64,000 bases of DNA from Cladocopium goreaui (taxonomy: Eukaryota > Sar > Dinophyceae > Suessiales > Symbiodiniaceae): NCBI GenBank assembly GCA_947184155.2, contig CAMXCT020001380.1:92501-156500 (forward strand), read 5' to 3'. Each line of letters opens with the position of its first letter. Positions within the stretch are counted from its first letter, which is position 1. Under the pieces are notes generated by a model that was not told the origin of the DNA, ran no database searches, and saw nothing but the letters and a program-made list of their open reading frames with translations. The position numbers and the translations under genes are program-made. Below, one piece after another: positions 18,690 to 59,362 of this stretch.

Positions 18690-18842
18690 ATAATATATAT
18701 TATACAATATAATATATATATATAATAATATATATATATATAATATATATATTATATATAATATATATATATAATATATATAATATATATAATATATAAT
18801 ATAATATATATATATATAATATATATAATATAATATATATAT
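18690..18842. repeat. TATAATATA-rich microsatellite
   Basis: Nearly pure A and T in TATAATATAT steps, a short relative of the array at 36932-37886. Confidence 0.9.
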
Positions 18843-36931: not shown

Positions 36932-37886
36932 ATATTATATTATATTATAATATAATATAACATAATATAATATAATATAGTATAATATAATATAATAGAT
37001 AATATAATATAATATGACATAATATAATAAGATAATATAATAATATATAATATAATATCATATCATATAATATAATATCATATAATATAAGATAATATAA
37101 TATAATATATAGAATATAATATAATTAATAATAGAATATAATAAAATATAATATAATAAAATACAATATAATATAATATAATATGATATAATATAATATG
37201 ATATGATATAATATAATACAATAGAATATAATAGTATATAATATAATATAATATAATATATTAGAATATAATATAATATATCATAATGTAATATAATATA
37301 TCATAATGTAATATAATATACGGTAATATAATATAATATAATATATAATATAATATATAATATAATATATAATGTAATATATAATATAATATATAATAAA
37401 ATATATAATATAATATATAATATAATATATAATATTATATATAATATAATATATAATATAATATATACTATAATATATAATATAATATATAATATAAGAT
37501 ATAATATAATATAAAATATAATATGTAGTAAAATATATAATATAATATGTAATATAATATATAATATAATATATAATATAATATAATATATAATGTAATA
37601 TAATATAATGTAATATAATATAATATAATGGTAGTATATATAATATATAATATAATATATTATATTATATATTATATAATATATTATATAATATATTATA
37701 TAATATAATATAATAAATATAAGATAATAGAATATAATATAATATAATATAATATAATTGTAGTATATATAATATATATATATAATATAATATATATATA
37801 ATATATATAATATATATAATATATATAATATATATAATATATATATATAATATATATAATATATATAATATAATATATATATATAC
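36932..37886. repeat. TATAATATAA satellite, about 950 bp
   Basis: Nearly pure A/T with TATAA and TATAATATA steps. The minus strand is open for 205 codons of Ile/Leu/Tyr, which is an artefact of period and composition. Confidence 0.92.
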
Positions 37887-45019: not shown

Positions 45020-46018
45020 TCCACTAACATCCCTGTTTTTCTTGATTAAACCTCCAACTAATCATCAATGAAAAATCCCATTAAACACTATTAAACCTAC
45101 TGCTTATTATTGGGTTTACCACAATAGTGCCTGGACCGAACTCCAATCGAAAAAAAGCTTCCGACCTGCGTTGCCGTCCCGTCCGGTCTTCGAACAGGTA
45201 TGGTGCATTTGGTCTGGCGCCGGGTTTCTCGGGACGAATGTGCCCAGTTGCCATATGAATAATATGGTTTTGTCTAAACATAGGGTACCCCATTCCATTG
45301 ATTTTCGACTTCATCTGAAATCCTATGATTTGGGTTTGTTTGAAAATGAGGTGGCCCGAAATCCACAGGTTCATCATATTTTCCCTATGGAAATTGACAT
45401 CACTTGGGGGAAAAAAGGCAATGTGTTGAACCATCTAGGTTCCACACCACCAACCCTTGGATTCGGCCTAAAGGTGCCTAAAGTAAGCCGTGCAAATGTC
45501 AATTTTAGGGATGCAAACAAATCTTGAACCACCCATTCTTGCATTTCTGGTGTCGATCTCCTTGTCGACTCACTTCTATCCTCAGGGATTCTCCACCAGC
45601 TTTGACCAGTTGTTTTTTTCGCCATGGCTCGACATGGACTACCAACAAAGCTGCGGAAAAACTGGTGGAAATTAAAGCCATCCATTTTTGGGAGGCCCAT
45701 CATTTAGAGCCATCCGGATATATCCGGATTTTTGCTGCTCATATCATATGGCTTGTGTGAAAAGTGGCAAGCCCCAAAACCCCAAGCTGGAGAAAGAAAC
45801 AAAAAACCATCAAAAAATTGCCATAAATTCGTGGTATCCAGCCCGCTTTGAGACAAACCAAAAAAAAACATATTGCTCCCACTGTATCCAAGCAAGTATC
45901 ACAATGTTTACGAGATCATTTCATCCATTTCAGCCCCATTGATCTATGGCAATGCTCCGCTGCCCAAATGGTGAAATCCCTGATCCATTGAAAACCTGCC
46001 GGCGTTCTCGAACGGGAA
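45020..46018. other. No gene confirmed
   Basis: A family G pair of ends (GGTTTTGTCTAAACATAGGG and GGGTTTGTTTGAAAATGAGG) brackets about 45260-45352. Minus-strand frames at 45081-45434 and 45374-45703 have fair composition but no clear splice sites. Confidence 0.35.
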
Positions 46019-46024
46019 TCCATA
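46019..46024. other. Target-site duplication TCCATA, left copy
   Basis: TCCATA directly outside the 3' LTR matches TCCATA at 59226-59231 outside the 5' LTR. The next base, G, also matches but probably belongs to the LTR edge. Confidence 0.7.
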
Positions 46025-46373
46025 GTCAAACAGGGGGACAAACCAGGCACCCACAAAAAGGAGAGAACCCGATCCGACAAACCCTGCATGAAATGCAACA
46101 GCAAGCACACTTTTGTGCACTTGAGCCATGAGCATCAAACAGCGGGAGTTAAGGACCTACCCGGTAGTTGTTGGGAAGGTTAACTACGACCCTGGGATAA
46201 ACTCTAGGCTATCTACATACCTAACGCTTCTAGGTATGAGGTGCTACTACTGTACACAAGGTATTCGGAGTAACTACTTAGGATGTTATGGAATCATAGC
46301 TACGGCATGCCAATACTAGACCTACTACCTATGCTATACATAGTGGGGGCTCGGGGGTCGATATATTTCAACT
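46025..46373 (-). repeat. 3' LTR of the retrotransposon
   Basis: Partner of the repeat at 58877-59225, equal in length (349 bp) and almost identical. Its inner edge abuts a purine tract on the coding strand and its outer edge abuts TCCATA, as expected for a 3' LTR. Confidence 0.92.
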
Positions 46374-46386
46374 CCCCCCTCGCCTG
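46374..46386 (-). other. Polypurine tract before the 3' LTR
   Basis: On the coding strand the sequence reads GGCGAGGGGGG immediately before the 3' LTR. This is the expected primer for plus-strand DNA synthesis in LTR elements. Confidence 0.7.
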
Positions 46387-46428
46387 TTCCACACGCACTG
46401 CGCATTGGCAGTAACCTACGCAACTACT

Positions 46429-46455
46429 GTCGCGCGAACGGGTGTCCGCAGCGAC
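46429..46455 (-). repeat. Bulged hairpin a, abutting the pol stop codon
   Basis: Outer stem GTCGC/GCGAC, lone A, inner stem GCG/CGC with a 10-nt loop. The C that always follows GCGAC is here part of the TAG stop of pol (46456-46458). Confidence 0.65.
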
Positions 46456-47844
46456 CTAGGCGTTGGCTTTAAGGTCTAAGGGGAGGTCAGTACGTATTCC
46501 TAAAAGGATTAGTGCTGCTGCCCATTTGTGTGGAGGCAATGCCTTGGTGAATATGTCTGCCGCCTGGTCATCGGTGTGGGTGTACTCTATCTCAGCAGAG
46601 TCATCTCTGAAGACTTCGGACAGGCAAGACAAATTAACTTTGTGTGTTCTAGTTATATGGCGAAGCTTGGGACTATATCCTTTCTTCACAACTAGGATTG
46701 TTGCTTGATTATCTTCGTGGACCTTAAGGGTTACGGAGCGTGCAAGCAACAGCTCCCATAACTGTAAGGCAGGCAAGCCTTCTTGATAAAGCGAATGGGC
46801 TAAACTAACAACCTCGCTTTCCGTGGTCGATCTAGAAGTGGATGTTTGGCGCTTGCTAATCCATGCAAGTGGGAAGAAGGAACTAGGGCCAGTCAAAACC
46901 AAAAAGCCACCGGAGGTTGAGCGTGCAGTTGATCTGTCGCCGGCGAAGTCGGCATCGACAAACAGTCTGAGCTCTAGGTCTTCAGGCTTGTCCTGAATGG
47001 TACCTACTAACCTGTAGTGTGGTGTTGAGGCTATGTACTGGATTAATCTTAAGACCTTCTTATCATCCCCCCTGGACCACGACTGGACCTTTGTGGCCGG
47101 ATCATTGATAGGCTTGATGATGTCGGGACGTGCAAGTCTACCTAACCAAAGGGCTTTCATCAAAATCTTACATGCATTTGGAGCTAGTTCCCCTTTAGTT
47201 TCATCATCCTCAATGGTGATGGATCCCTCAGGTGGAAATGGCGTGGCGGCATGCTTGAGTTTGGTGATACCGGTTATTGATTTATACAAATCTACGGTCT
47301 GCTGAGCGTAGTCTGCCATATCAAAAACCATGCCATCTTGGGCTTGGAAGGCTGCACATTTTTCATGACCTTCGGTCTTGGATAGTGGTGTAACAACATG
47401 GTTGCGTCCAAGAATCCTATAGATGGGCTCTGGGGGTTCGATGTCTACCACAGAAGTTAACTTACTCCAGAATGCATCATGCTGGTCGGCGGGGCCAGCA
47501 AGAGTTAAATCGTCTACATAAGTTGACAGAAGTAACTTTGTATCTGGGAAGTAAAAGTTTCCTGGGTATTCTTGAACTTCCTGTCCACCAAGGTTCTTGA
47601 TGATGACTTTCAAGTGTTGTTCCCACAGGCCTTCGGCATCAGGATGACCGTATAAGGCTTTAATTAAGAGGACTACGGGCTTAACAAACTGTTGTTTCCA
47701 ATACTTAGGGCGGAGCTCCGGGGGAAGCTCAATCCAGGTTTTGTATTTGGAAGATAACAGTGCTTGGACGTAAGCTTTGACTGCATCTGCAGCCGTCGCG
47801 CGGTTACCCGGCAGCGACCCATACGCCAGGCAGGCGTTTAGCCC
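46456..47844 (-). CDS. Reverse transcriptase and RNase H, -1 frame continuation of pol
   Basis: Translation in the -1 frame is open without a stop from about 47844 to the TAG at 46456-46458. It picks up exactly where the upstream polyprotein breaks. Numbered from the in-frame Met at 47613, the polymerase motif YVDD is at residues 32-35. The RNase H domain has DADFAGD (220-226), Glu265 in STTESE and Asp301 in HEDNQAT. The copia tail motif ADIFTKAL is at 352-359. About 77 codons precede that Met and contain further RT sequence (LNACLAYGSLPG, LIKALYGHPDAEGLW), so the Met is not the true start. The enzyme copies element RNA to DNA. Either one G was lost from a G run at 47842-47844, or the protein is made by -1 ribosomal frameshifting. 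The sequence there is not a classical slippery heptamer, so mutation (or sequencing error) is my first reading. Confidence 0.88.
   Translation of the reverse strand, partial: GLNACLAYGSLPGNRATAADAVKAYVQALLSSKYKTWIELPPELRPKYWKQQFVKPVVLLIKALYGHPDAEGLWEQHLKVIIKNLGGQEVQEYPGNFYFPDTKLLLSTYVDDLTLAGPADQHDAFWSKLTSVVDIEPPEPIYRILGRNHVVTPLSKTEGHEKCAAFQAQDGMVFDMADYAQQTVDLYKSITGITKLKHAATPFPPEGSITIEDDETKGELAPNACKILMKALWLGRLARPDIIKPINDPATKVQSWSRGDDKKVLRLIQYIASTPHYRLVGTIQDKPEDLELRLFVDADFAGDRSTARSTSGGFLVLTGPSSFFPLAWISKRQTSTSRSTTESEVVSLAHSLYQEGLPALQLWELLLARSVTLKVHEDNQATILVVKKGYSPKLRHITRTHKVNLSCLSEVFRDDSAEIEYTHTDDQAADIFTKALPPHKWAAALILLGIRTDLPLDLKANA
47795..47818 (-). repeat. Bulged hairpin b, just downstream of the pol frame break
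   Basis: Outer stem GTCGC/GCGAC with lone A. The inner arms GCGG and CCGGC pair with one extra bulge. It starts 20 nt beyond the TAA that ends the upstream polyprotein frame. Confidence 0.65.
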
Positions 47845-50800
47845 TTGGACGGAGTGGGATTTGCGCCGAGTTCTTGGTAAACCGCGGCTGCACCATGTTC
47901 GTCCTTTGCGCAGTCTCCTCTGTACACAATGCGCCCCTTCATTTTGTGAAGGTGGTCTGCAAGCTCGTAGAATTTAATGGACGCGATGGTCATGAGCTGA
48001 CCAAAGTGTACTGACACACCCGAAGCCTTAGCTTCTTTGCGTACATCTTCCTTCTCGCGGACCGAGCCAAGATCCCAAGTACCAGCCTTAACCAAACCAT
48101 CGGCTTCGGCGCGGATTGCCTCTAGGGCCTTGGGATTGGACAGCATCTCTGCACGGGATAAGAGCTTAGTGACCATTGCTTTGATCTCAGGCGTTGGCGC
48201 CTTTGGGTCTTCCAGGTGGAAGGCTTGGGCGATCAATTGTTCATGGTCAAGAAGTTCTGTAACCAACCTATTAGCAGTGGGGTCTGATTCAACAGCTAGG
48301 GCTAAATCTTCAAAACCAGCTAATGGGGATACATGCTTAAGGTGCTGCTCAATTTCCCTATGGGGTTGAGGCTCGCTAGTTGCCGGTCGGCAAGGCATAG
48401 CAGGAACGGACTGCTGGGCACATTTTGAGGGATACAAAGCTTGCGCAATTAGATTAGTCATTTGGGGCGGATACATTGCGGAGCGAGTGGTCTCAGCTCC
48501 CTCACATCTGGAATGAGGTTGCTGGCAACGACACCGCATATCTTGAAACGCCTCTACAATTCGGGGAGAAGTGGTCTTGAGCTTCCATGGCTTTTTGATG
48601 GGATAACCATTTCTGTCGGTTAAACCTACGGTACACCCTTCAAAATCAACGGTCATAAACTGGGGATGCTTCCCAAAGAATGCTACAACGTCGGGCCTTT
48701 TCCAGCCAGAGCAAGGTCTTGGCCACTCAAACGTTACAGTACCACCATGATTGAGAACCCTTTCAGCGCGTTTGGAAAAACTCTTAAACAACCGTTTGGA
48801 CTCTTTGACCTGGTGGGCAAGCTTCCTAATGAATGCGGCACCACCCCTCTTCCTATTGATGTACTGCCAAGGGGATCCGGATGTGCAAGGGATAGAGGCC
48901 CACATATGTGGAGGTGCAACCTTAGCGGCTTCATCTATCTGATAGTCTAGTTGCTCACATTGTGACTCATCTCCCAGGTCTATCCTATCCTTACAAAGTC
49001 TAACATGATTAATGCCATATTCTTGGTGAGTAAAACCCATCTGGGAGTCCTCAGAACAAGCAAATTCAAACATGGTTGACTTGGCATTGGGTCTGGAAGC
49101 TTTCTTGGCAGCTTTCCGGCTCCTACGATTATCGCGGTTAGTTGGCTTACCTACAGCGGGGCAACCAAAAACAGGCAGCGACTTTTGACATAGGTCGGAA
49201 CATCGATTGGCAACTTGGGGAAGAATAGCTACACCAGAAACGGAAACAGCAGGCTCGGCTGGAGCGCTGGGTTCGGACGACCCTGGTACCTCACCTCTTA
49301 TGAGAGTTTCCTCAAAGAGCGCTCTGTCCTCAGCGGAGAGGTGCGATGGTATGGGGTCAGGGTCAGGCAGGTCCTCACCCTGGAAGATGATGCCATGTGC
49401 TTCATCATCCCTGTCTTCTGCTTCCGTCTCACTTGTGGGTGGTGGAGCTTTCTTTTCTTTTTCGGCATCTTTTTCTTTTTCAACCAACATTGAGAAGCGG
49501 GCTCTGCACTCATCAGTGTGCACGCGTGAATGGCCAGTGCAGCCTTTGCAACCAGGGGTCTCTTTCCATTTAAGGATGCGGTCTACGGTTATATAAACAG
49601 AACGACTTTTGAGACCTGGTGTAGAGGGTGAGGCTATTCCGCCCTCCTTGGGGAAGGGCACATCCTTTAAGGCATATTCAGGCAACTTAAGATCATCTGG
49701 GTTATCCCCCCTGACGAGAGCTTGGTGGCGTGAAAAACCTACTGGAAAAACAGGATCACCTTCAGGGACAAAGATTTCTGCTTCTGGAACATCAACGGCT
49801 GAATTCCCACCTCTAGTGCGATACTCTTGGTAATCTAACACCCTTAAGATATTTCTATATCGGAAACCGGGATCAATCCTCCAACCCAAAAATAGACCAG
49901 GTGACATGTTGGGCTCCAAAGTCCTTTTGGTGGGTGACTTCCTACGGTAATACACTAACTGACCAAAGCATAACCTCATGCCATCAAACTTATTCCTAGT
50001 AAGCGACTCCCATTGGGTTTTGTCGGGGTCAGCTATTGAAGGCTTGTCGAATGACATTGAAAGGCAAGCATATGGATAGCTATATGTGTGATACTCATAG
50101 GGAAGGCCAGATTGGAGGTGAATAGTGCGGCAACATTCTTTCTCCTCTCGAACATCTCTCTCGAGGATGGCATTGTGGGGCCATCTGTTCGGCAACGAGG
50201 TTTCTGGAACCATGCCTACGGCATGTGCCGCCTGCTCAAGCTCGCCTGCTTCGTCCATTTTGATGAACGTTCGGGTGGTGAGCTCTGATCCACGCAATCC
50301 TAAGAAATGCCTAAAGTTGCGAGCATGCGCGTCAGCAGTACGTTTAGACAATGGGTATGCAACACGCGCACCAGAGTACGCATCGCGGATGACATGATGC
50401 GACCTTATTCCCCCTATACCTACACCCAAGTGTTCGGACCCTTTAGCTAAGATAACATCATCAGTAGCAAGCTGTTCCAGCGGCTGCTTTGGGGGATCAA
50501 CAAAATCATCGGCTTTGCCATCTTTGACATGTGAAACCCTCATGGCGGTATCTTTTGCTATATGGCACAAAGGACAGTAGGGATTTTTGGGAAAATGGGT
50601 GCGCAAATGTTCAGGGCTAGTGGCTTGCTGCTTTAGAACTTCATCCTTAGGCGGCTCACCATCACCTAGCTCTACCAAAAGCTTATCATCCATTGGGTGT
50701 TTAGGCTCCGACGCGCTAGGGGGCCCAGCAGCGTCCTCAACAGGCTCGGGATCTAGAATTTCATCTAATTCTGAAGGACTAGGAAGGTCACTACCACCAA

Positions 50801-53800
50801 AGCTAGGGGCATAGCCAGGGTCATTAGGATCTTCTTCATCATCAGCGGGAGCATCAGTTTCCACAGGTGGAGCTGGCACGGCAGTTGAGACAGGAGCAAG
50901 GTGCTCGCTGGGCACAAAATGACGTGGGGTCAACTCTTCATCATACTGGGGAACATATTCAACTACCCTAGATGCACAGATTCTAGCGTTCCGGGGAACT
51001 TTCATCCTACACCTGTTGATATTTTCTGGAGCTATCAAGTAGGGGACATTCTCTCTAGGATCCCAGACAAACATGTAACCCTTATCTATGACAGTCTTAC
51101 CAATGCTTTGTGCGGGAGGACATTCTTTAAGGACATAGACCTCTTCACCTTCAAGAATCTTACTTCCATTAAAGGCTAGTGACTCTTGGCCAGGCTGGCT
51201 GCCACCTCCGGTAGCAAAAGCAACAGGATTGGGTGATTGCTGCAAGTGCTCCTTCATGGCTGGTGTGAGGGCTTGGCGTCCGATCAAGTGTCTACCTGCG
51301 GCCGTGTCCCAAAGCCAGGGGATGGATTTGGAGGCCTTCATTGGCATGGCATTGATGGGGTCAGGATTATTAGTCGCGCCATCGGCAGCGACCTCTGGGA
51401 TTATGACAGTTGCCATACTAGCAGCAGCTTTGGCAGGGGCTTTACCGCTTTTACCAAGTGCTCTAGGAGGAGGTCCCTTATACTTGTTGGTGTCTGAGTG
51501 GAGGAACGCGCACGACTTAGCTTTGCATGCATTGTACGCATAGAACATGCAAGGGGTTTTGGCCTTTTCGGAAGCGCTCATGTTTGCTACTTTCTTGGCT
51601 TCTTCCCCACGCGGGGTCGTGTTGCCCTTTCGGTTGGGCGGAGGCGGCTTTGGACCGGATGGCTTGGCCTTGGGCTTCGCTTTCGGGGCAGGAGCTGCCT
51701 TCACGTCCTCCTTTTTAGGGGTTTTCTTTGGTTGAGGATTACCCCCCCCTGAACCCTGGTTCTTAGGCGTGGCCTTAGCTTTGGGATTAGGGGTTGGTGC
51801 AGGGGCACCAGCGATTTTGTCATCGGGGGTTTGTTGCGTGCCAGCATAGCCAGCAGCAGGCTTCAACTTCAGCTGCTTATCAAACTCGGCGCGATTACGC
51901 TTCTGCTGATCAAGTTGGATGGCAAGTTCAACCTTAGACCATAACCAGTCAGTGGTGCGACGATGGCTATCTAGTCGGGCTTCCCTAGCTTTAACAACTT
52001 TTGGGGCGATCACGGCATTGCGCTCTAGTTCGTCGATGAGATGGTTAAACAGCGCCTGTTGTCGCGGTAAATCCTCTAAGGGGATGGTAGACATCACGTA
52101 AATATACTTATCCCTAAAGGCCTCTAAGTCAGCTACCGTGTTACCAGCGACCCTAAGGGATAATAGATTCCGCTCGCCAAGCATGCCAATGCGGTCACGC
52201 TCCAATTGGAAATGTTTGAATATTTTACGCAACATCGCGCGCCCGCAAGGCATTGCACCACTAGCGCGCTCTGCTTCTACCATTTGCTGAAAAACAAGAC
52301 CAAACCTACCGCGCTTACAGGTCTTTATGAGCCTAGAAGCGATCTCTCGATCGGTGCGGGGGTACCTAGGATCGGCTTGAAGAACAGCTTCATCAGTGGT
52401 TAGGCACTCTTGGGCCCATTGGTAAACTTCATTACCGGGGGTCTTTTGGAGTTTGCCTATTGACATCAACACCTGATTGATATATCCACGGGCTTGACCT
52501 GCGTTCTCTGGTGGATTCGGAAAAACCATGTCAACTAAGGATTTTATCCTAATGGTATCTTCTTCATCATCCGCGTAGTTAACAGCAGGTGGCTGTGGGG
52601 CTAAATAGGGTTGGTTCATGGTAAGATGCGGGCATTCGATCTCTTCATGGAGGTCACCACAAATCCTACATTCGGTAAGGACTAATGGGGCACGCACTGA
52701 GTGGAACTCACCAGAATCCGAGGAGGACTCTGAGCTACCTGAATCAACCGATCTATTAGCAGAACCAATATGGTGAAAAGATGTGGTATTGTCAACAACT
52801 AAACCCTGTTGCGCCAACGGAAGTGGCGGCAACCCTGGCGGCAACACCTGCTGCGGTGGAGGTGCACGACCTATGGACCCAAAACGAGAGTTTGCACAGG
52901 GAGTGCCCGCAGCACTAGCATTGGTTGGACCTAAGCCCGGTGCGCTAGCAGCAGCGCCCTTTGGGGGCGTGCACGGAGGTGCTATCGGCAGGGGTGCAGG
53001 GGCAGTAAGCTGCTGAGATTGTTGTTGTTGCATCTGTTGAAGTTGCTGCTGTTGCGATTGCAATGCATTGGTCAATCTATTCACTTCAGCTAAAAGTTGA
53101 TGGACTAAAGCTGATTCTGTTGGATTCGAAGCACTTGCAACATTAGCGCTAGGTACCATGGCATTTGCTGGCATGGACAAGTTGGCAACTGCCAACTCCG
53201 CAGGTTGGGGGTTCGCCATAACAGTCACGGGTGTGGCACCCGGAGGGTGAAAAGACTGAGGCATGGTCGGAACAACATTTGGTGCTACTTCATGGGATGA
53301 TTGGCCAACAGAAACCCTGGGGGTGGCCCAAGTAGTTGCCTCTACAACCATTGGATTTGCAACCTCTTGCAGGGGAACTGGAGTATTTTGTGGGGAACCA
53401 AAAGGCCTAGCACGAACATCTGGTGTTTGAGCTGGAGCTGGAACATAACCCTCAAATAGATTGAAGTTTTCCATAGTTTGCTCATCTTCAGGAATTACCC
53501 TTTGACCTACATTTTCTCGGGGAAGATCCGCAAGATAGTCCATGAGGGCAGAACCTGAAATGGGGGAAACTGGAACTGGGGATGCTACAGCCAAGTTGTT
53601 TTGGCGTCTGGCTTCTGCCAGCTGTTGCTCAAGGAGAGCAATCCTAGTATCCCTTTCAGTTATTTCAACTTCCCGAGTGGCCAATTGTTGGTTACCCAAA
53701 TTGATTTGTTGTTGAAGTGGTCTAACATTAGATTCCACAAATTGTTGGGCTTCCCGTTGCAAAACCGCTTGACTCTCTAAGACTTCCTGCTGAGCCTGCT

Positions 53801-54386
53801 GCCTAGCCCCAAAAACAAATTGTTGGGCTTGTTGGGTGAGGTTATGCTCAAACAACTCCGAACCCCTGTCCCTCTCAGCCAGAGCGGCGTGAGCTTCCTC
53901 CTGGTTGTGCAGGATGGCTCGTGCTGCGGCGTCGCGCATTTCTGCAGCGACCTGACCAAAGTCGGATTGCTGCTGTGCGATGACTTGTCTAGCTTGGAAG
54001 GCTTCTAATTGGGATTGGATGGCAACATTACTAGCATGGTCTGCGATAGTGGCGGCATGGTGCGCTTGGGTCACAGCAGCACCCGCAAGGAAAGTGGCTT
54101 GGGTTGCACTAAGGTCTACAGGATTATCTTCATCAGGACTATTGCTTGGGTTTGGACCATGGGGACCCCTTTGCCTAAATCTATTTTGTTGAGATGCTTC
54201 CACACTAGTATCAGATGACTCATCAACACGCATGGCATCCCTAGTTGAAGGCAACTGGATTCTTCGTGGAACCAGGGAGGTAACAACCGCCGGGACCCTT
54301 GTTGCATTTGGATTAGAAGTTTCAGGACTACTCCTTGACCTACTGTTAGATGAACTAGGATCAGAAGGGGGAGAAATGCCTGACAT
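47838..54386 (-). CDS. Gag-protease-integrase polyprotein with accessory domains (2,182 codons)
   Basis: Residues 100-260 are a Gln/Ala-rich coiled-coil-like region. A knuckle CRICGDLHEEIEC lies at 573-585 (CX2CX3HX4C, one residue short of the usual gag knuckle). Residues 600-850 look like a capsid-type helical region, followed by a Lys/Pro-rich linker. A CCCH-type finger uses Cys946, Cys954, Cys959 and His963. The aspartic protease motif is WLWDTAAG with Asp1027, in place of the usual DSG. The integrase zinc region lies near 1260-1274 (His...CPLC), and the core has Asp1308/1309, Asp1378 and Glu1409 or Glu1414. A Cys/His cluster is at 1613-1627. A domain of unknown role follows at about 1772-1965. 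Reverse transcriptase begins near 2094. The frame then stops at TAA (47838-47840) just after RT has begun, and RT continues in the -1 frame. The protein would build particles, mature itself and insert cDNA. Confidence 0.9.
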   Translation of the reverse strand: MSGISPPSDPSSSNSRSRSSPETSNPNATRVPAVVTSLVPRRIQLPSTRDAMRVDESSDTSVEASQQNRFRQRGPHGPNPSNSPDEDNPVDLSATQATFLAGAAVTQAHHAATIADHASNVAIQSQLEAFQARQVIAQQQSDFGQVAAEMRDAAARAILHNQEEAHAALAERDRGSELFEHNLTQQAQQFVFGARQQAQQEVLESQAVLQREAQQFVESNVRPLQQQINLGNQQLATREVEITERDTRIALLEQQLAEARRQNNLAVASPVPVSPISGSALMDYLADLPRENVGQRVIPEDEQTMENFNLFEGYVPAPAQTPDVRARPFGSPQNTPVPLQEVANPMVVEATTWATPRVSVGQSSHEVAPNVVPTMPQSFHPPGATPVTVMANPQPAELAVANLSMPANAMVPSANVASASNPTESALVHQLLAEVNRLTNALQSQQQQLQQMQQQQSQQLTAPAPLPIAPPCTPPKGAAASAPGLGPTNASAAGTPCANSRFGSIGRAPPPQQVLPPGLPPLPLAQQGLVVDNTTSFHHIGSANRSVDSGSSESSSDSGEFHSVRAPLVLTECRICGDLHEEIECPHLTMNQPYLAPQPPAVNYADDEEDTIRIKSLVDMVFPNPPENAGQARGYINQVLMSIGKLQKTPGNEVYQWAQECLTTDEAVLQADPRYPRTDREIASRLIKTCKRGRFGLVFQQMVEAERASGAMPCGRAMLRKIFKHFQLERDRIGMLGERNLLSLRVAGNTVADLEAFRDKYIYVMSTIPLEDLPRQQALFNHLIDELERNAVIAPKVVKAREARLDSHRRTTDWLWSKVELAIQLDQQKRNRAEFDKQLKLKPAAGYAGTQQTPDDKIAGAPAPTPNPKAKATPKNQGSGGGNPQPKKTPKKEDVKAAPAPKAKPKAKPSGPKPPPPNRKGNTTPRGEEAKKVANMSASEKAKTPCMFYAYNACKAKSCAFLHSDTNKYKGPPPRALGKSGKAPAKAAASMATVIIPEVAADGATNNPDPINAMPMKASKSIPWLWDTAAGRHLIGRQALTPAMKEHLQQSPNPVAFATGGGSQPGQESLAFNGSKILEGEEVYVLKECPPAQSIGKTVIDKGYMFVWDPRENVPYLIAPENINRCRMKVPRNARICASRVVEYVPQYDEELTPRHFVPSEHLAPVSTAVPAPPVETDAPADDEEDPNDPGYAPSFGGSDLPSPSELDEILDPEPVEDAAGPPSASEPKHPMDDKLLVELGDGEPPKDEVLKQQATSPEHLRTHFPKNPYCPLCHIAKDTAMRVSHVKDGKADDFVDPPKQPLEQLATDDVILAKGSEHLGVGIGGIRSHHVIRDAYSGARVAYPLSKRTADAHARNFRHFLGLRGSELTTRTFIKMDEAGELEQAAHAVGMVPETSLPNRWPHNAILERDVREEKECCRTIHLQSGLPYEYHTYSYPYACLSMSFDKPSIADPDKTQWESLTRNKFDGMRLCFGQLVYYRRKSPTKRTLEPNMSPGLFLGWRIDPGFRYRNILRVLDYQEYRTRGGNSAVDVPEAEIFVPEGDPVFPVGFSRHQALVRGDNPDDLKLPEYALKDVPFPKEGGIASPSTPGLKSRSVYITVDRILKWKETPGCKGCTGHSRVHTDECRARFSMLVEKEKDAEKEKKAPPPTSETEAEDRDDEAHGIIFQGEDLPDPDPIPSHLSAEDRALFEETLIRGEVPGSSEPSAPAEPAVSVSGVAILPQVANRCSDLCQKSLPVFGCPAVGKPTNRDNRRSRKAAKKASRPNAKSTMFEFACSEDSQMGFTHQEYGINHVRLCKDRIDLGDESQCEQLDYQIDEAAKVAPPHMWASIPCTSGSPWQYINRKRGGAAFIRKLAHQVKESKRLFKSFSKRAERVLNHGGTVTFEWPRPCSGWKRPDVVAFFGKHPQFMTVDFEGCTVGLTDRNGYPIKKPWKLKTTSPRIVEAFQDMRCRCQQPHSRCEGAETTRSAMYPPQMTNLIAQALYPSKCAQQSVPAMPCRPATSEPQPHREIEQHLKHVSPLAGFEDLALAVESDPTANRLVTELLDHEQLIAQAFHLEDPKAPTPEIKAMVTKLLSRAEMLSNPKALEAIRAEADGLVKAGTWDLGSVREKEDVRKEAKASGVSVHFGQLMTIASIKFYELADHLHKMKGRIVYRGDCAKDEHGAAAVYQELGANPTPSKG
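51373..51392 (-). repeat. Bulged hairpin c
   Basis: Outer stem GTCGC/GCGAC, inner stem GCC/GGC, loop ATC, lone A before GCGAC. Lies between the CCCH finger and the protease. Confidence 0.8.
53931..53951 (-). repeat. Bulged hairpin d
   Basis: Outer stem GTCGC/GCGAC, inner stem GCA/TGC, loop TTTC, lone A before GCGAC. Within gag. Confidence 0.8.
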
Positions 54387-54797
54387 CTTGACCCAAACTC
54401 GGCTGAACTTTTGCGCTCAACTGCAACGATGTGATCCAACGCGAGCTTTGCTCAGCGTCCCAAGCAAAAGTGTGCAGTGATGGGACAAAAGACCAATGCA
54501 GCACAATACTACCTCAACCAACAAAGTCTTCGCAAGTTGGATATTAAGATAATAAAGTGCAATTGAAATTAATTCAAGTTGTGTTGAAGTTCGGATGCAA
54601 TACGGCTTCGCTAGCGGTAATGACCCTAGCTCTGACCACAAAACAACACTGAACTAAAAACAAAAGGCAAAAGGCAATTGGACAATGGACACTTGGCAAA
54701 CGACAAGGACAGACCGACGAACGTAGCGAGCAAGCTCAGCTACCTCGGCGTTGAAAGCCTATCGGATGCTGTAGAACCGCTGGACTTGTGCCAGGGT
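54387..54797. other. Spacer between ORF1 and gag-pol of the retrotransposon
   Basis: These 411 bp have stops in the gag frame and no convincing ORF. They could hold a splice acceptor or internal entry signal for gag-pol, but I see no decisive motif. Confidence 0.5.
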
Positions 54798-56420
54798 CTA
54801 CCAAAGTGACTTATCGTCCTGGCCCCCAAAGTTGGGGTAAAATTGATTGGTCCTAAGAGGAACTGGGCGGCGAGATTCCAGGATCTGGCTGACCCCTTCA
54901 AGACGTAACCAGTCCTCTACCTCTGCAATCCAGCAGAGTTCCCTGTCAGAACGCCCCTCTGATCGGATGGTTTTAATGCCGAGTTGCCTGCACTCGTTCA
55001 GGATGTCAGAACGGTCGTCGATGAGACAATGTGCCTGAAGAGCGGAGATGATAGAGGATTTGCCCTGCCTACCGCAAGGATAGCGTGCCAGGTGCACTTC
55101 TCTAAACGGCAAACCTTCTGCAATCAGTTGGCTAATCACGTGCTCAGCACCGGCCTTGGTGCTGTCAATCTTAGATTGGCCGGCGTATGAGACAATGTGG
55201 AACTCAATTTGATTACCAGCAATCCTAGTCAATGACCGAAGCTTATCAACTAAATGGGAAGACAATTCACCTACGGGGTTGAGAGCCTGGTCAATGGTAT
55301 CGTGCCAGTCGATACAAACAACTACGTTGGATGTATTAACGTGGACTACCTTAGAGACTAAGTTGGGTTGGTGCTGGTAATGTCGCGGCACAGAGCCAGC
55401 GACCCCCTCTGGCCGATCTGGTGTTGGGTCAGGTAAAGGCCGCCCACGGACGTGGGGTGCAAGGCCAGAACCTGAGCTTTGCTCTTGATGCGGCTGCTGC
55501 TGTCCTTCGGGATCAAGTGGAGGAGGATCTCGGGACGGTTGACCAGCAGGTCTTGGCCCCCCAATTCCTGGCGGAGGAGGTTTTACAGGCTTAAGACTAG
55601 CTGGATTAGGGGGAACAGGCCTATTAGGTCTTGGGGGAATTACCACAGGTGCAGCGGGTGCAGCAGGTGCCACAGGTGCAGCAGGTGTCGCAGGCGCAAT
55701 TGACACAGGTGGATGTTTCCAAGGCAGATTCTTCTTTTTCTCTGGAGCTGGTGGCAACGGTTCTGGCCTTTGGGGCGTGTCGGGGACAGCAGCCCCCTTT
55801 GCACGGATTGGCACAGGAACGGAACTAGCTCTTTTGCGAGACTTAGATGAAATCTTATTTGAAATTGGTACTTCCCTTCCCCTTGTTCTGGCAGCAACTG
55901 CGGGCGCAGTTTCGGCTGAGGGTGCTCTTGATCTGGATCGCGCAACGGGAGAGCCGGCTGGCTCTGATGCAGTCTCTGTCGCGACACGGGCTGTGTCAGC
56001 GACCCCAGTTCCAGCACTTTGCAAAGACTGCCTCCAGGGAGGATAAGCTGAACTACTAGAACTGCTTAATGGGGGAACAGTCAAAGATGGTACTGTTGGG
56101 GCTGCAGGTGTTGTTGGTGCAGCAGAAACTGGATCTTTTCTGGGCTGTGCCGGCTTATCACGTTGGATTCTGGAGGTTCTTATGTTAGGACGCTGTCTCT
56201 TTGGTGGAGACTCAATTGGACGGGCAGGGGTGCGCTCAGCGAAGCCAGCGTCGAACGGTTCTTGCTGGCCGACAAATGCCTGACCTGATGAAACAAACCT
56301 GGCGGTTCGAGTCTCAGCAGTTTCAGAGCCCTCAGATTCGGTACCGGGGTTATTGGTGTCAAGATTATAAACACTATTGGGGTCTAAGTTACTTGAACAT
56401 GGGTCATTAAATGTCCCCAT
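54798..56420 (-). CDS. Retrotransposon ORF1, C-terminal part (540 codons) with HAD-like domain
   Basis: The first ~360 residues are Pro/Ala/Ser-rich and probably disordered. Residues about 366-495 show the order of HAD-superfamily phosphohydrolase motifs. VVVCIDWHDT ends a hydrophobic strand with Asp371, and His373 sits where the second Asp is usual. HIVSYAG supplies Ser411 (motif II), Lys454 in GRQGKSS could be motif III, and HCLIDDRSDIL supplies Asp468-Asp469 followed by a Gly-Ile strand (motif IV). HAD enzymes use the first Asp as nucleophile. Replacement of the second Asp by His may mean altered or lost phosphatase activity. The apparent ATG at 56418-56420 lies in MITE sequence, so this is the downstream half of the interrupted ORF1 rather than an independent gene. 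I know of no standard copia protein with such a domain. The HAD assignment rests on motif reading only. Confidence 0.7.
   Translation of the reverse strand: MGTFNDPCSSNLDPNSVYNLDTNNPGTESEGSETAETRTARFVSSGQAFVGQQEPFDAGFAERTPARPIESPPKRQRPNIRTSRIQRDKPAQPRKDPVSAAPTTPAAPTVPSLTVPPLSSSSSSAYPPWRQSLQSAGTGVADTARVATETASEPAGSPVARSRSRAPSAETAPAVAARTRGREVPISNKISSKSRKRASSVPVPIRAKGAAVPDTPQRPEPLPPAPEKKKNLPWKHPPVSIAPATPAAPVAPAAPAAPVVIPPRPNRPVPPNPASLKPVKPPPPGIGGPRPAGQPSRDPPPLDPEGQQQPHQEQSSGSGLAPHVRGRPLPDPTPDRPEGVAGSVPRHYQHQPNLVSKVVHVNTSNVVVCIDWHDTIDQALNPVGELSSHLVDKLRSLTRIAGNQIEFHIVSYAGQSKIDSTKAGAEHVISQLIAEGLPFREVHLARYPCGRQGKSSIISALQAHCLIDDRSDILNECRQLGIKTIRSEGRSDRELCWIAEVEDWLRLEGVSQILESRRPVPLRTNQFYPNFGGQDDKSLW
55382..55403 (-). 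repeat. Bulged hairpin e
   Basis: Outer stem GTCGC/GCGAC, inner stem GGC/GCC, loop ACAGA, lone A before GCGAC. The inner stem is reversed relative to hairpins c and h. Confidence 0.8.
55978..56003 (-). repeat. Bulged hairpin f
   Basis: Outer stem GTCGC/GCGAC, inner stem GACAC/GTGTC, loop GGGCT, lone A before GCGAC. Its stem equals that of hairpin i but the loop differs. Confidence 0.8.
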
Positions 56421-56503
56421 TGAACATCACCCAACCATTAGGTATATGGTCTATAATGGCTACTATAAGGTGATGTCCAATATACCCAAAATGGGACAGT
56501 TAC
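56408..56503. mobile_element. Family H MITE inserted in ORF1
   Basis: The ends are inverted copies: TAAATGTCCCC followed by TTGAACATCACC on one side, and GGTGATGTCCAA with ATGGGACAGTTA on the other. The same ends occur at 20151-20250 and around 61574-61670. The frames before and after it are in the same phase on the minus strand. The MITE supplies a TAG stop at 56463 and an artificial ATG at 56420. It therefore inserted after the element's ORF1 was formed. Confidence 0.75.
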
Positions 56504-58805
56504 CAACCCCTGTTGAACCAAGAACAGTCCGATGGGATCTAAGTGCAGGATCACGCCACAACGAGTCGGGAAGCTCGTGTGGGTTGACCCCAAGCTCTGG
56601 TGCCACGGCGTGAGGCACAATGAACGGCAAAGTCTGCGGCGCGTACGCGATCGGAGGATCAGCGACCCTAGCCCAGGTGCCAGCGGAGTCAATTCTAATT
56701 TCGGGGTAACCGTGCACTTGAGGTCTTAAAGCAAGAGGTCTCCTAGAAACACCGGTTATGGTTCGGGCTCTATAAAGTTCTTGATTAAGTTCAATGCGTT
56801 CACGGGTTTCCCTTGGGACTAGATTGACAGGCAATGGCGGATTGGACCTAGTTCTTTTAGGCCTACGACGGCGCGTGGAAACCTCACGGCCGTGCTCTGT
56901 TGGTGTAAAGTCAGGGAATTCGGGTTCAGCTTCGGCCTCAACCTCAACTTCAACCACTTCGTCCTCCTCCAAAACTTCCTCTTCCTCTTCCTCCTCCACC
57001 CACTGCTCCTCTTCAGGCGGTGGATCGTTGGGATCCTCCGGAGCAGCCTCTTCTCGCGCCTCTGCTGTCTGGGGATCGCGCGCAGCGAGCTCCTGTGCAG
57101 TTGGCGGCGGATGAGATGGTGGTGGTGGTAAAGGTGGTTGTTTATGAACGGGCGGACTAGGGGGAATGTTATTAGGTGGAGGTGGCAAACCTTGAATTCT
57201 ATCTGCAAGGGTTGTGGCACTAGAATCAGGAGCTTTAGGCCTAGCCTTAGCTGGTGGCTTAGCAGGGCTAGCAACTGGGACTGGTGCTACGTCGCGCCCA
57301 AAGGCAGCGACCCCTTGAGAATCTGACTTTGGGGCTTGTGGGACCGGATGGACAGAGACAGTAACCCTTGGACGCGGTGGCACTGCTGGCTCAGGTGGCC
57401 TTCTCAAAGAAGGTTGCCAGTTCGGCGGTGGGTGCCCAGGCTCTTTGGGTCCTTGCTGGACCGGAGTCGGATCTGTGCCTCCACTTGCCGCGCCAGCAAC
57501 GGGTGTTGCGGCAGCAGGCCTTACCACTTTTGGACGGGGTTGCTGCTGTGGGCCTACGTATCTATAATACCTATCCCACTCTTCTGGGCGCGGGTGCTCT
57601 GCCCCTAAGATGCGTTGATTGATGATCCTTTTAGGGGGTAGTTCACCAGAGTTTATCACTTGTTCACCGTGTGAAATACCTCTGCGCCTGTCCAAACCGT
57701 AGATGTGAGCCCACTCTTTGTAAGGGATGAGGATCTGGTAGGCCAAAGCTAAACACTGTGATGTTGGGAACTCCTCAACAAGTCTTGAATGAAGAGCTAT
57801 CAACCAGCGAGTGCTTTCGTCGGCGTATTCGTAAGAAATCTTTCTTAACCAAAAGCCACCTACGATATCCCCTCCGGAGTTATGGTAAACCCAATTTTGG
57901 TATGCCTCGAAGTCGTTCCACCAAGCTCGCTTTGCTTCTTGCCACCTGGTTGTGGTACCACCCCTGCTGGATCGAACCCTTGGTCGATGGGCTGTTGATG
58001 AACTAGCGGGGGAATGTCCTACTTGGATAGGATCGGCACCTGGGTCAACAAGATTAGGGCTAGTTGGTGGTGGGACTATTTGATCGGGGCAACTAGTGTT
58101 GGCTTCTGTCGCGACACCGGATGTGTCAGCGACCGCAGGCTCAGGCACGGATGCAGATGGTTCGGATGCAACGGATGCTTCTCCTACTGGACCCGCCTCG
58201 TCACCTAAACCCAAAAGATCAGCAGATTCGACCTGTTGTTGTTCTTCTTCAGCTGGATCTGCAAAATCTGTTGTGTCAATCTCGCAGTCGGCCTGTTCCA
58301 GAAGAGTTGAAGAATCTTGTTGAGGATCTACTTCTTCCTCTTTTGCTCGATCAATGTCCGTGAAAGCAGCTTCCGCTGGGTTACCCAAATCAGAAGGTGG
58401 TTCCAAAAATGACTGATCTTGAAGTGAAGTGTCAACCCCAGTTTCTTCCGTCGCGACGGGATCGTCAGCGACCTCCTCTGGCAAGCCAATTGCTGAAATT
58501 ACCGCACTGATGCTCTCGGCCTCGTGGATCTCCTCCTTAACCTCTACCAGTGATCTTTGTGGATCTGCAGAGTCTGTCACAATGGAGTCGACACCAGAAG
58601 GCACGGGCGCTTGTACCTCAGACAGATCGGCCCAGCTTTGAGATGTCTCAGCTACTGGTTCAGCAGGCCACGGAGGGGACACCTCAACGCTTTCTGCTTC
58701 CTCAGCTGCCTCGACTCCCTCGGCTGGAGTTACCGTCGCGCTGGAATCAGCAGCGACCTGTTCCGAACTGCCTGGGGGCATGCAACAAAGAACAGTGAAG
58801 TGCAA
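56463..58805 (-). CDS. Retrotransposon ORF1, N-terminal part (780 codons), cut short by a MITE
   Basis: The reading frame opens about 70 bp after the 5' LTR, so it is the first protein of the element. Residues 1-280 are acidic and rich in Glu, Ala, Ser and Pro, probably disordered. Residues about 284-417 form the only globular-looking stretch, with many aromatic residues (AKRAWWNDFEAYQNW, the WLIALHSRLVEEF region, then EWDRYYRYVGPQ). I do not recognise this domain. The remainder is Pro-rich and Glu-rich, with a long Glu run near residues 640-660. The last ~14 codons and the stop come from the MITE at 56408-56503, so the natural protein did not end here. The next frame downstream (54798-56420) is in the same phase, so the two were most likely one ORF of roughly 1,300 codons. 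Function is unknown. Its place before gag is unusual for copia elements. Confidence 0.75.
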   Translation of the reverse strand: MHFTVLCCMPPGSSEQVAADSSATVTPAEGVEAAEEAESVEVSPPWPAEPVAETSQSWADLSEVQAPVPSGVDSIVTDSADPQRSLVEVKEEIHEAESISAVISAIGLPEEVADDPVATEETGVDTSLQDQSFLEPPSDLGNPAEAAFTDIDRAKEEEVDPQQDSSTLLEQADCEIDTTDFADPAEEEQQQVESADLLGLGDEAGPVGEASVASEPSASVPEPAVADTSGVATEANTSCPDQIVPPPTSPNLVDPGADPIQVGHSPASSSTAHRPRVRSSRGGTTTRWQEAKRAWWNDFEAYQNWVYHNSGGDIVGGFWLRKISYEYADESTRWLIALHSRLVEEFPTSQCLALAYQILIPYKEWAHIYGLDRRRGISHGEQVINSGELPPKRIINQRILGAEHPRPEEWDRYYRYVGPQQQPRPKVVRPAAATPVAGAASGGTDPTPVQQGPKEPGHPPPNWQPSLRRPPEPAVPPRPRVTVSVHPVPQAPKSDSQGVAAFGRDVAPVPVASPAKPPAKARPKAPDSSATTLADRIQGLPPPPNNIPPSPPVHKQPPLPPPPSHPPPTAQELAARDPQTAEAREEAAPEDPNDPPPEEEQWVEEEEEEEVLEEDEVVEVEVEAEAEPEFPDFTPTEHGREVSTRRRRPKRTRSNPPLPVNLVPRETRERIELNQELYRARTITGVSRRPLALRPQVHGYPEIRIDSAGTWARVADPPIAYAPQTLPFIVPHAVAPELGVNPHELPDSLWRDPALRSHRTVLGSTGVGNCPILGILDITL
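56644..56666 (-). repeat. Bulged hairpin g (worn outer stem)
   Basis: The left outer arm is TACGC instead of GTCGC. The inner stem GATC/GATC, loop GGAG, lone A and right arm GCGACC are all kept, so it is probably a mutated family member. Confidence 0.55.
57291..57311 (-). repeat. Bulged hairpin h
   Basis: Outer stem GTCGC/GCGAC, inner stem GCC/GGC, loop CAAA, lone A before GCGAC. Within ORF1. Confidence 0.8.
58108..58133 (-). repeat. Bulged hairpin i
   Basis: Outer stem GTCGC/GCGAC, inner stem GACAC/GTGTC, loop CGGAT, lone A before GCGAC. Within ORF1. Confidence 0.8.
58450..58472 (-). repeat. Bulged hairpin j
   Basis: Outer stem GTCGC/GCGAC, inner stem GACG/CGTC, loop GGAT, lone A before GCGAC. 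Within ORF1. Confidence 0.8.
58735..58757 (-). repeat. Bulged hairpin k
   Basis: Plus-strand outer stem GTCGC/GCGAC, inner stem GCTG/CAGC, loop GAAT, and a lone A before GCGAC. Lies near the start of ORF1. Confidence 0.8.
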
Positions 58806-58865
58806 AAAGAAGTTAGGGCCTAAGGCAAGTTTTACCGGATCAGGTTCCCCAACAAAAGCCTTACG

Positions 58866-58876
58866 GCTGATAACCA
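58866..58876 (-). other. Primer-binding site (tRNA complement)
   Basis: Minus-strand TGGTTATCAGC begins directly after the 5' LTR. It starts with TGG, the complement of a tRNA CCA end. It resembles the TGGTATCAGAGC site that many copia elements use with initiator methionine tRNA, but with an extra T, so the tRNA identity is not settled. Confidence 0.65.
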
Positions 58877-59225
58877 GTCAAACAGGGGGACAAACCAGGC
58901 ACCCACAAAAAGGAGAGAACCCGATCCGACAAACCCTGCATGAAATGCAACAGCAAGCACACTTTTGTGCACTTGAGCCATGAGCATCAAACAGCGGGAG
59001 TTAAGGACCTACCCGGTAGTTGTTGGGAAGGCTAACTACGACCCTGGGATAAACTCTAGGCTATCTACATACCTAACGCTTCTAGGTATGAGGTGCTACT
59101 ACTGTACACAAGGTATTCGGAGTAACTACTTAGGATGTTATGGAATCATAGCTACGGCATGCCAATACTAGACCTACTACCTATGCTATACATAGTGGGG
59201 GCTCAGGGGTCGATATATTTCAACT
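58877..59225 (-). repeat. 5' LTR of the retrotransposon
   Basis: This 349-bp direct repeat matches 46025-46373 except at about two positions (a C/T near 59033 and an A/G near 59205). On the minus strand it starts AGTTGAAATATATCG and ends CCCTGTTTGAC. It lacks the usual TG...CA ends in strict form, although TGAAATATA lies three bases in. Promoter and polyadenylation signals would be expected here but none stands out. Confidence 0.92.
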
Positions 59226-59231
59226 TCCATA
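59226..59231. other. Target-site duplication TCCATA, right copy
   Basis: Partner of 46019-46024. The unrelated sequence beyond each copy supports a true insertion boundary. Confidence 0.7.
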
Positions 59232-59362
59232 GAGGTTAATCCCCGAACTCATCAACCAACCATCATTCATCGCTTGGTTATCTGCTTATATCTACTTACA
59301 TCCCCATATTTTGATGGGGTTTTTTAACCCCCTAGAAAAATCTAGAAAAACCATCATTAACC
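59232..59362. repeat. Family I repeat, copy 2
   Basis: GAGGTTAATCCCCGAACTCA, then TATCTGCTTATATCTACTTA and a GATGGGGTTTTTTAACCCCC region, matching 7605-7745. The retrotransposon sits right at its edge. Confidence 0.65.

Follow-up and report, generated by a model that had tools for sequence, protein, structure and literature searches.

Introduction

Dispersed packaging signals of single-stranded RNA viruses consist of many degenerate stem-loops built on one plan, which are found in coding as well as non-coding RNA and in which structure is kept over sequence. Proof of such signals in viral RNA is difficult, since the structures overlap with coding sequence. In lentiviral TAR, a single hairpin at the 5' end of the RNA, recognition centres on a U bulge flanked by stems rich in G-C. 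Mobile hairpins found in genes, among them the mitochondrial byp elements, are inserts; palindromic repeats insert in some bacteria, and double-hairpin elements in some mitochondria.

We analysed a 64,000-nucleotide stretch of Cladocopium goreaui DNA (the window; contig CAMXCT020001380.1, positions 92,501 to 156,500), in which small bulged hairpins recur along an LTR retrotransposon. Like the viral packaging signals, these are repeated stem-loops of one plan, restricted to the genomic RNA strand (45 sense, 0 antisense) and conserved in structure over sequence; unlike them, their constant part is a bulged U with the adjacent pairs and not the loop, their carrier is an LTR retrotransposon, and binding by a coat protein is putative. 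With TAR they share the U bulge between G-C rich stems and the free loop, but the window element holds 13 internal U-bulge copies (in a core scan without the LTRs themselves). They resemble byp elements as small hairpins within open frames, and differ in that the hairpins at testable sites came about by substitution and that the open frames run through them. Among Copia elements, the GalEa elements of fungi have a Conserved Hairpin Site, one imperfect hairpin with an A/A mismatch that lies just after the 5' LTR and replaces the primer binding site (PMC5445492). Both cases are conserved imperfect hairpins of Copia elements, whereas the window hairpins are dispersed, have another core, and begin with a first copy 119 nt inside the LTR boundary.

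The carrier element

The hairpins are carried by a Copia-type LTR retrotransposon on the minus strand of the window (46024..59228), which is set by paired direct LTRs of 353 bp each (5' LTR at 58876..59228 and 3' LTR at 46024..46376, 99.15% identical by blastn). Four open frames were mapped on the same strand: ORF1 (56463..58805, 780 aa), which has no match in Pfam; ORF2 (54798..56420, 540 aa), with a C-terminal domain of predicted HAD-phosphatase-like fold; a gag-pol frame (47838..54386, 2182 aa); and a reverse transcriptase (RT) frame (46456..47973, 505 aa), which in the window copy is in another frame than the upstream gag-pol. The RT frame matches RVT_2 weakly (E 2.8e-4, at 21 bits against a cut-off of 31.6) and has 447 relatives among proteins (E up to 1e-5), with TY5A of Symbiodinium natans among the 120 listed; because many of the relatives aligning over this frame carry PF07727, we treat it as a divergent RVT_2 member. 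The Gag knuckle is non-canonical (CX2CX3HX4C with acidic residues) in family 1, that of the window element, and in family 3, as opposed to the canonical CX2CX4HX4C in three of four other Copia elements of the same genome, a contrast that covers few elements. Neither the family 2 pieces nor one outgroup element yielded a knuckle.

Structure and positions of the hairpins

In the transcript, the motif has a lower stem of 5 bp, preceded by an unpaired purine, and an upper stem of 3-6 bp that starts from a G-C pair, the two being separated by a bulged U. The two innermost pairs of the lower stem are G-C and C-G in nearly every case, and the loop is free and mostly 3-5 nt long. The purine is G in families 1 and 2 and mostly A in family 3. 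The first-pass annotation had described a bulged A within a fixed outer stem; since the element is on the minus strand, the bulge is instead a U on the 5' side of the hairpin, and the outer arms vary and covary too (for instance GUAGC/GCUAC, GGAGC/GCUCC and GACGC/GCGUC, with GAUGC/GCAUC and AUUGC/GCAAU in family 2). Outer arms are mostly GTCGC in families 1 and 2, and GGGGC, GGTGC and others in family 3. The bulge is a base other than U in three of the 39 tabulated hairpins (two A, one C); outside these 39, a C-bulge match at 52808-52833 counts among the core matches given below and is not claimed as a hairpin.

All positions below are on the minus strand, from the 5' end of the transcript. 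ORF1 contains GUCGC-U-GCUG..CAGC-GCGAC at 58735..58757 (with GACG..CGUC and GAG..CUC in siblings), followed by three hairpins also listed earlier, GUCGC-U-GACG..CGUC-GCGAC at 58450..58472, GUCGC-U-GACAC..GUGUC-GCGAC at 58108..58133 and GUCGC-U-GCC..GGC-GCGAC at 57291..57311, and by a worn copy with a partly paired outer stem at 56644..56666. ORF2 contains GUCGC-U-GACAC..GUGUC-GCGAC at 55978..56003, another of the previously listed copies, and GUCGC-U-GGC..GCC-GCGAC at 55382..55403, which has GGUA..UACC in two siblings. Two non-coding hairpins follow, GUAGC-U-GAGC..GCUC-GCUAC at 54723..54743 and GACGC-U-GAGC..GCUC-GCGUU at 54438..54459, both with GUGC..GCAC in family 2. Within gag-pol lie GUCGC-U-GCA..UGC-GCGAC at 53931..53951 (GCU..AGC in family 2), a near-hairpin GGCGC-U-GCU..AGC-GCACC at 52939..52958, which has one outer mismatch and pairs completely at the corresponding site of families 2 and 3, GUCGC-U-GCC..GGC-GCGAC at 51373..51392, degenerate in the single aligned family 2 copy, GACGC-U-GCUGGG..CCUAGC-GCGUC at 50710..50735, and GGAGC-U-GAG..CUC-GCUCC at 48480..48500. 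The last two are a hairpin inside the RT coding sequence at 47795..47818 and one at 46429..46455, located directly after the pol stop, as noted before, where families 1, 2 and 3 all have a hairpin with differing letters.

All ten copies of the first-pass annotation were thus recovered, its additional worn copy being the one at 56644-56666. Copies absent from that list are 48480-48500 and 54723-54743, found by an unconstrained scan, and 50710-50735 and 54438-54459, found by looser scans. Copies are irregularly spaced, roughly 280 to 2200 nt apart, and are densest in ORF1-ORF2.

The copy at 47795, whose pairing had been called partial, has an extra bulge in the upper stem and is weak as a fold: with short flanks, the lowest-energy fold is another structure (z -1.24). 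Six other true hairpins were folded; five adopted the proposed structure (z -1.9 to -2.8), and the sixth contains it within a larger fold (z -0.86). Rfam covariance models gave no match at E up to 1 in 46000-59300.

Abundance and strand asymmetry

An unconstrained scan, which asked for an outer stem of 5 bp, a one-base bulge and at least 3 bp of inner stem, returned ten matches on the plus strand of the element, all with a bulged A and all followed by the C that had been said always to follow, and two with other bulges on its other strand, whereas 30 mononucleotide shuffles of the element sequence gave 1.17 matches on average; over the whole window it returned 100 and 79 matches, nearly all in AT-rich repeats. 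Allowing at most one G.U pair gave sense/antisense counts of 16/3, 16/2, 7/1 and 3/0.

The core motif, defined on families 1 and 2, separates the strands completely. It matched the window element 14 times in sense (13 with U) and never in antisense, and the 46,019 + 4,768 bases (50.8 kb) outside the element, the ~51 kb in which none had been noticed before, gave no core match on either strand. Sense/antisense counts were 11/0 in each of two family 2 pieces (L025 and L024) and 3/0 and 6/0 in family 3 (L029 and L031), so that this diverged family with other outer arms contributes nine hairpins, on the sense strand only. Together the five element pieces, two of which are copies of one family, have 45 core matches in sense and none in antisense. 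A looser scan of the window element (at most two G.U pairs, any letters) gave 24 sense and 21 antisense matches, with the core present in 14 and 0 of these; loose totals being alike on both strands, the separation lies in the core only.

A shuffled-codon null had been proposed as a check. The window element has 11 coding core matches, against a mean of 0.42 and a maximum of 3 in 1000 synonymous-codon shuffles, and further coding counts, each compared with 1000 such shuffles, were 9 against 0.38, 2 against 0.025 and 6 against 0.17.

Covariation at homologous sites

At the site after pol (46429-46455), 11 of 11 pairs are kept in seven distinct sequences out of ten copies (three rows identical to others were left out, and a seventh, innermost pair, which is A.C in two sequences, was counted as loop), with two-sided changes at four pairs. 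Pairing, two-sided changes and covariation score were each reached by 0 of 500 shuffles, while the number of pair types was reached by 484 of 500; every counted non-Watson-Crick pair is G.U in the transcript. At 54438 the covariation score was reached by 37 of 500 shuffles, which is weak taken alone.

Over 13 sites, 24 distinct changed pairs comprise eight two-sided Watson-Crick changes, seven to G.U, two one-sided to A-U, two A.C and five other; five of these 24 (three of the "other" class, one A.C and one two-sided) are contributed by family 3 at 48480, a site at which it has no hairpin. Whole elements show 13 G.U against 3 A.C pairs, together with 7 A/G and 7 C/C or T/T mismatched pairs, so that G.U is not the sole class above A.C. 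The end-of-pol hairpin has different letters in each of its three families, and at 58735 complementary arms are exchanged for others among copies (GCTG/CAGC, GACG/CGTC, GAG/CTC). In 12 comparisons with flanks less than 80% identical, which are not independent (seven come from one site and three from another), identity was 93.5% in stems, 69.4% in loops and 72.7% in flanks. This comparison covers 13 of 17 sites (leaving out 56644, 52939, 52808-52833 and 47795), without gapped rows and two family 2 rows of other length at 54723, and with rows longer than the window hairpin trimmed to its length.

The covarying inner stem of the first-pass annotation is therefore borne out by compensatory changes and transcript-strand G.U pairs at homologous sites, and the selection on structure that it suggested by the agreement of core counts, codon shuffles, covariation and stem identity. 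That the RNA structure of the hairpins is under selection is well supported, and we hold it with high confidence; selection acts on the transcript strand, whether or not the hairpin lies in coding sequence.

Distribution among families and elements

The same genome contains at least three diverged families with hairpins, one of them with dozens of near-identical copies, and the core is shared at both common and differing positions across families. Family 2 carries four of its hairpins in tandem units 141-147 bp apart. An exact-pattern search of the genome found 610 + 497 places, compared with 84 and 97 for controls. Among the 100 of these that were listed, 87 are clustered over 14 contigs, of which 11 align with the element clade and three (C3, C20 and C118) are judged by hairpins with family 2 letters, and the other 13 are scattered singles whose inner arms pair over 1 bp in 12 cases and 2 bp in one. 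As sampled, confinement to the element clade holds. The core has no match on either strand of four further Copia elements from this genome, which total 33.9 kb. A covariance model (R2) gave 25 matches. The 19 from the window all fall within the element and on the minus strand, although 13 of the 19 are rows of R2 itself and hence circular; its other six matches are loci chosen by the exact pattern (L001-L006), and it found no match in family 3 (L029-L032).

Origin of the hairpins and alternative explanations

Family 3 has no hairpin at 47795 or 48480, and its alignment runs ungapped across both sites; these hairpins therefore arose by substitution and not by insertion. RT spacing around 47795 is identical in all 63 relatives showing both anchors (of 120 proteins); in RT, family 3 also has a hairpin that is missing from family 1, the two aligning there with no more than small gaps; at 51373, the family 2 sequence is degenerate and short gaps (6 bases) adjoin the site. 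At testable sites, hairpins are thus gained or lost through base substitution, the insertion test concerning 47795 and 48480, as flanks do not align at most ORF1-ORF2 sites. Miniature palindromic DNA parasites inserting into the element, as the first-pass annotation had considered, would account for one plan in many copies within one element and for the tandem hairpins of family 2, but the empty homologues at 47795 and 48480 show no gap across the hairpin, arms at 58735 have been replaced by other complementary arms, and 87 of the 100 listed exact-pattern places belong to the element clade while the other 13 are unpaired; six-base hairpin flanks show no obvious target-site duplication. We regard such parasites as most improbable. 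A copying mechanism, in which one arm templates the other during reverse transcription, would produce two-sided changes and keep pairing without function or selection; it would not, however, keep the bulged U, the surrounding GC pairs and the 5-bp length, or the strand asymmetry of the core, nor produce in family 3 hairpins that share this core but lie elsewhere, and it appears very improbable. Chance, or low-complexity coding repeats, might be suspected from similar peptides encoded by several hairpins (VADT..VAT, GAAxSA) and from loose generic hairpins about equally common in antisense, but shuffles that keep protein and codon usage lose the hairpins, 3' arms are read in all frames, and non-coding copies covary, which leaves this explanation practically negligible.

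The hairpins had been placed in more than one reading frame, which is mostly wrong: across three families, 33 of the 35 hairpins in coding sequence have their first base at codon position 1. This phase and the hairpin immediately after the pol stop would favour translation control, with hairpins that would slow ribosomes or shift them at defined positions, such as those between domains, and translation or RNA-stability roles fit the uneven spacing and the ORF1-ORF2 density equally well. The phase bias, however, fits coding composition, because GCTG outside hairpins has the same phase in 148 of 172 places; a ribosome bypass or frame-linked function considered from this bias was dropped after that control. 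Hairpins are also present in untranslated stretches, their lengths are free modulo 3 (19/14/6 of 39), and the protein reads straight through 47795 with the usual RT spacing, so that translation control seems quite unlikely. Splicing, or processing of the bulge-helix-bulge type, was considered as well and set aside. The same structural and covariation evidence, non-coding copies at 54438, 54723 and 46429 included, would also suit a host protein that reads the motif for export, localisation, stability or masking of the element transcript. An element-encoded reader is easier to reconcile with an outer-arm preference that differs between element families within one genome, and the 50.8 kb of neighbouring DNA hold no core match; a host reader is on balance unlikely.

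Proposed role

The sense-only core counts, codon shuffles and covariation support the earlier proposal of an RNA signal belonging to the element. The hairpins would represent one RNA motif repeated along the genomic or messenger RNA of a Copia clade, and our tentative, though leading, interpretation is a dispersed recognition motif of this clade that most likely serves as a Gag or packaging mark. A reader protein, most likely the element's own Gag or else another element product, would recognise the bulged U and the surrounding GC pairs, with the outer arms as the family-specific part of recognition; the many copies may provide high-avidity binding, by which the element RNA would be picked out and condensed in its particles. 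More speculatively, and rather unlikely as it stands, this Copia clade may have swapped the usual zinc-knuckle RNA recognition of Gag for a dispersed bar-code of bulged-U hairpins, whose outer arms (GTCGC versus GGNGC type) differ by family, each selecting its own RNA.

With at least three families that have hairpins at shared and differing positions, and with gain or loss by substitution at testable sites, selection for structure becomes directly measurable. If the reader is Gag, these elements would clearly exemplify a retrotransposon with a dispersed packaging code, whose specificity could be tested through the outer arms that differ between families.

Copia element and related families

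The bulged hairpins lie in a Copia-type LTR retrotransposon at window positions 46024-59228 (minus strand), which has 353-bp LTRs that are 99.15% identical. On the minus strand it carries ORF1 (58805-56463), ORF2 (56420-54798) and then gag-pol (54386-47838), which the reverse transcriptase (RT; 47973-46456) carries on in a different frame. The pol of this copy is broken in frame at 47838-47973 (minus strand); sibling copies with open frames occur elsewhere. The genome search covered 1.166 Gb in 6202 contigs. With 85 of 5201 candidate places scored, it returned 76 RT copies besides that of the window at 95-99% identity, about two dozen of them in open frames of about 2650 aa, which indicates that this family (family 1) is young. 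Among the protein relatives listed, the only one named to organism was from Symbiodinium natans, which points to a dinoflagellate as the probable host.

Families 1-3 share a conserved C-terminal domain of ORF2 (window 54801-55331, minus strand), which lies upstream of gag and bears the motifs DWHDT and DDR.D. A Pfam search gave no match to it, and its structural model (pLDDT 83.8) resembles HAD-superfamily phosphatases at moderate scores (TM 0.55 with the HisB N-terminal domain, 0.44 with MDP-1 and T4 Pnkp phosphatase), some other Rossmann-like folds also being among the matches. Copia elements do not usually carry a domain of this kind before gag. The gag of families 1 and 3 has a non-canonical CX2CX3HX4C knuckle with acidic residues, while a canonical CCHC knuckle was found in three of the four other Copia elements compared, a small sample.

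Hairpin structure and conservation of the core

The ten hairpins and one worn copy of the first-pass annotation were all found in the window element, and in transcript sense they take the form G-GUCGC-U-G...C-GCGAC. Their outer stem, described there as fixed, in fact varies: an unconstrained scan (5-bp stem, one-base bulge, inner stem) revealed two hairpins with other outer arms, and a further two came up once G.U pairs were allowed. The unconstrained scan gave ten matches on one strand of the element, all sharing one bulge base and one following base, and two on the opposite strand with other bulge bases, against a mean of 1.17 in the shuffled element. Long AT-rich runs at window 18710-18840 and 37635-37880 fill generic hairpin scans.

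The common core was defined as NNNGC-N-G..C-GCNNN, fully paired with at most two G.U. The family 3 element C1464 (RT 84% identical), chosen once families 1 and 2 had revealed the core, contains nine core hairpins, all in sense and eight with a bulged U; the outer arms are GGGGC, GGTGC, GAGGC and TGTGC, the upper stems open with GC, and the flank GGNR is present in 9/9. Contig C1569, with seven core hairpins in the part fetched, is 96% identical to C1464 across 11.4 kb, and both thus represent one family. Over 39 hairpins of families 1-3 the bulge base is U in 36, A in two and C in one; all 39 have G-C as both fourth outer and first inner pair, as follows from the construction of the scan. The base 5' of the stem is G in 29/30 hairpins of families 1 and 2, and the bases before and after the stem form a Watson-Crick pair in 0/30 of these and 1/9 in family 3, which limits the lower stem to 5 bp. 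Hairpin length modulo 3 is 2, 0 and 1 in 19, 14 and 6 cases, respectively. Folded alone, five of seven true hairpin pieces adopted the proposed structure and one kept the hairpin inside a larger fold; that at 47795 preferred another structure.

Confinement, strand and reading frame

The window element had 14 core matches in sense and none in antisense; the counts were 11/0 in each of two pieces from family 2, and 3/0 and 6/0 in family 3 pieces. The proposed confinement to the retrotransposon held in the DNA sampled, with no core match on either strand in the 46,019 and 4,768 bases outside the window element, nor on either strand of four Copia elements from other lineages of the genome (33.9 kb). 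Outside the element, the window also holds a 450-aa open frame with RCC1 repeats (15611-16960, minus strand). The 7.377-Mb contig G000:C1, which may be a bacterial chromosome within the assembly, showed six scattered pattern matches, none of them paired.

The coding core matches also exceed a codon null: in 1000 synonymous-codon shuffles that left the proteins unchanged, the window element, with 11 observed, gave a mean of 0.42 and a maximum of 3. The other counts were 9, 2 and 6 against means of 0.38, 0.025 and 0.17 (maxima 3, 2 and 2), the family 3 piece with two matches being within its null when taken alone. When the core was not required and as many as two G.U were allowed, hairpins were alike on the two strands of the window element (24 sense, 21 antisense); with at most one G.U, the counts were 16/3 in family 1, 16/2 in family 2, and 7/1 and 3/0 in family 3 pieces.

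The use of more than one reading frame applies to 2/35 coding hairpins, the remaining 33 starting at codon position 1. Since GCTG outside hairpins has the same phase in 148/172 cases, most of this bias follows coding composition.

Selection on pairing

The site that follows the pol stop is represented in families 1 and 2 by seven distinct sequences, which retain all 11 pairs, with GUCGC/GCGAC in family 1 versus AUUGC/GCAAU in family 2 and both-sided change at four pairs. None of 500 shuffles equalled the observed pairing, two-sided changes or covariation score, and 484 reached the number of pair types; these counts are not probabilities, the sequences being related. Sliding the partners by 1-3 columns lowered pairing to 17-44%. 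The corresponding place in family 3 has a hairpin of other letters, which encloses the stop codon and has A as its bulge base. The four sequences of the 54438 site vary between G-C, G.U and A-U in the first outer pair and between A-U and U-A in one inner pair; taken alone this site is weak, 37/500 shuffles reaching its covariation score. In family 2, L025 has four tandem units of 141-147 bp at 2375-2828 that hold one hairpin each, with pairs that covary across units; pair 5 is C-G, U.G or U-A.

Over 13 sites, the 24 distinct pair changes comprise eight two-sided Watson-Crick, seven G.U, two one-sided A-U, two A.C and five other changes, five of the 24 stemming from a single homologue that lacks the hairpin. 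In the 12 comparisons whose flanks were less than 80% identical, ten of them from two sites, identity was 93.5% in stems (216 positions), 69.4% in loops (49) and 72.7% in flanks. These contrasts, with the two-sided changes and the shuffles, bear out the suggested selection on structure. The excess of G.U over A.C in transcript sense (7 versus 2 at the 13 sites; 13 versus 3 in a separate count, other mismatch classes ranging from 0 to 7) points to the transcript strand as the selected one.

Origin and possible function

A parasitic palindrome spreading inside the element had also been suggested, with clean borders between sibling copies as the check. At 47795 and 48480, family 3 lacks the hairpin in an alignment ungapped across both sites, and all 63 relatives showing both anchors, among 120 proteins, have the same protein spacing around 47795. 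Conversely, at about 47358 in RT a hairpin is present in family 3 and absent from family 1, the alignment as a whole having small gaps only. At these places hairpins were thus gained or lost by substitution; most ORF1-ORF2 sites have flanks too diverged for this comparison.

Among known systems, the hairpins invite comparison with dispersed packaging signals, TAR and byp elements. Rfam covariance models gave no match to the hairpins. The fungal GalEa Conserved Hairpin Site (PMC5445492) consists of one hairpin next to the LTR, in contrast to the many dispersed ones here.

Because the bulge, its neighbouring pairs and the lower-stem length are constant and the loop is free, some protein probably reads the hairpins. 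Gag, acting in the packaging of the element RNA, is tentatively the likeliest candidate among several, as copies occur throughout the internal RNA in coding and non-coding parts, the core is confined to the RNA strand, and the outer arms are family-specific; the altered knuckle of families 1 and 3 also bears on this reading, within the small sample compared. A host protein may be the reader instead, with lower probability, and a role in translation is less probable again. Selection acts here on one RNA motif in many copies, which the genome, in the part sampled, carries in a single Copia clade; the Gag of that clade may use the motif to package its RNA.
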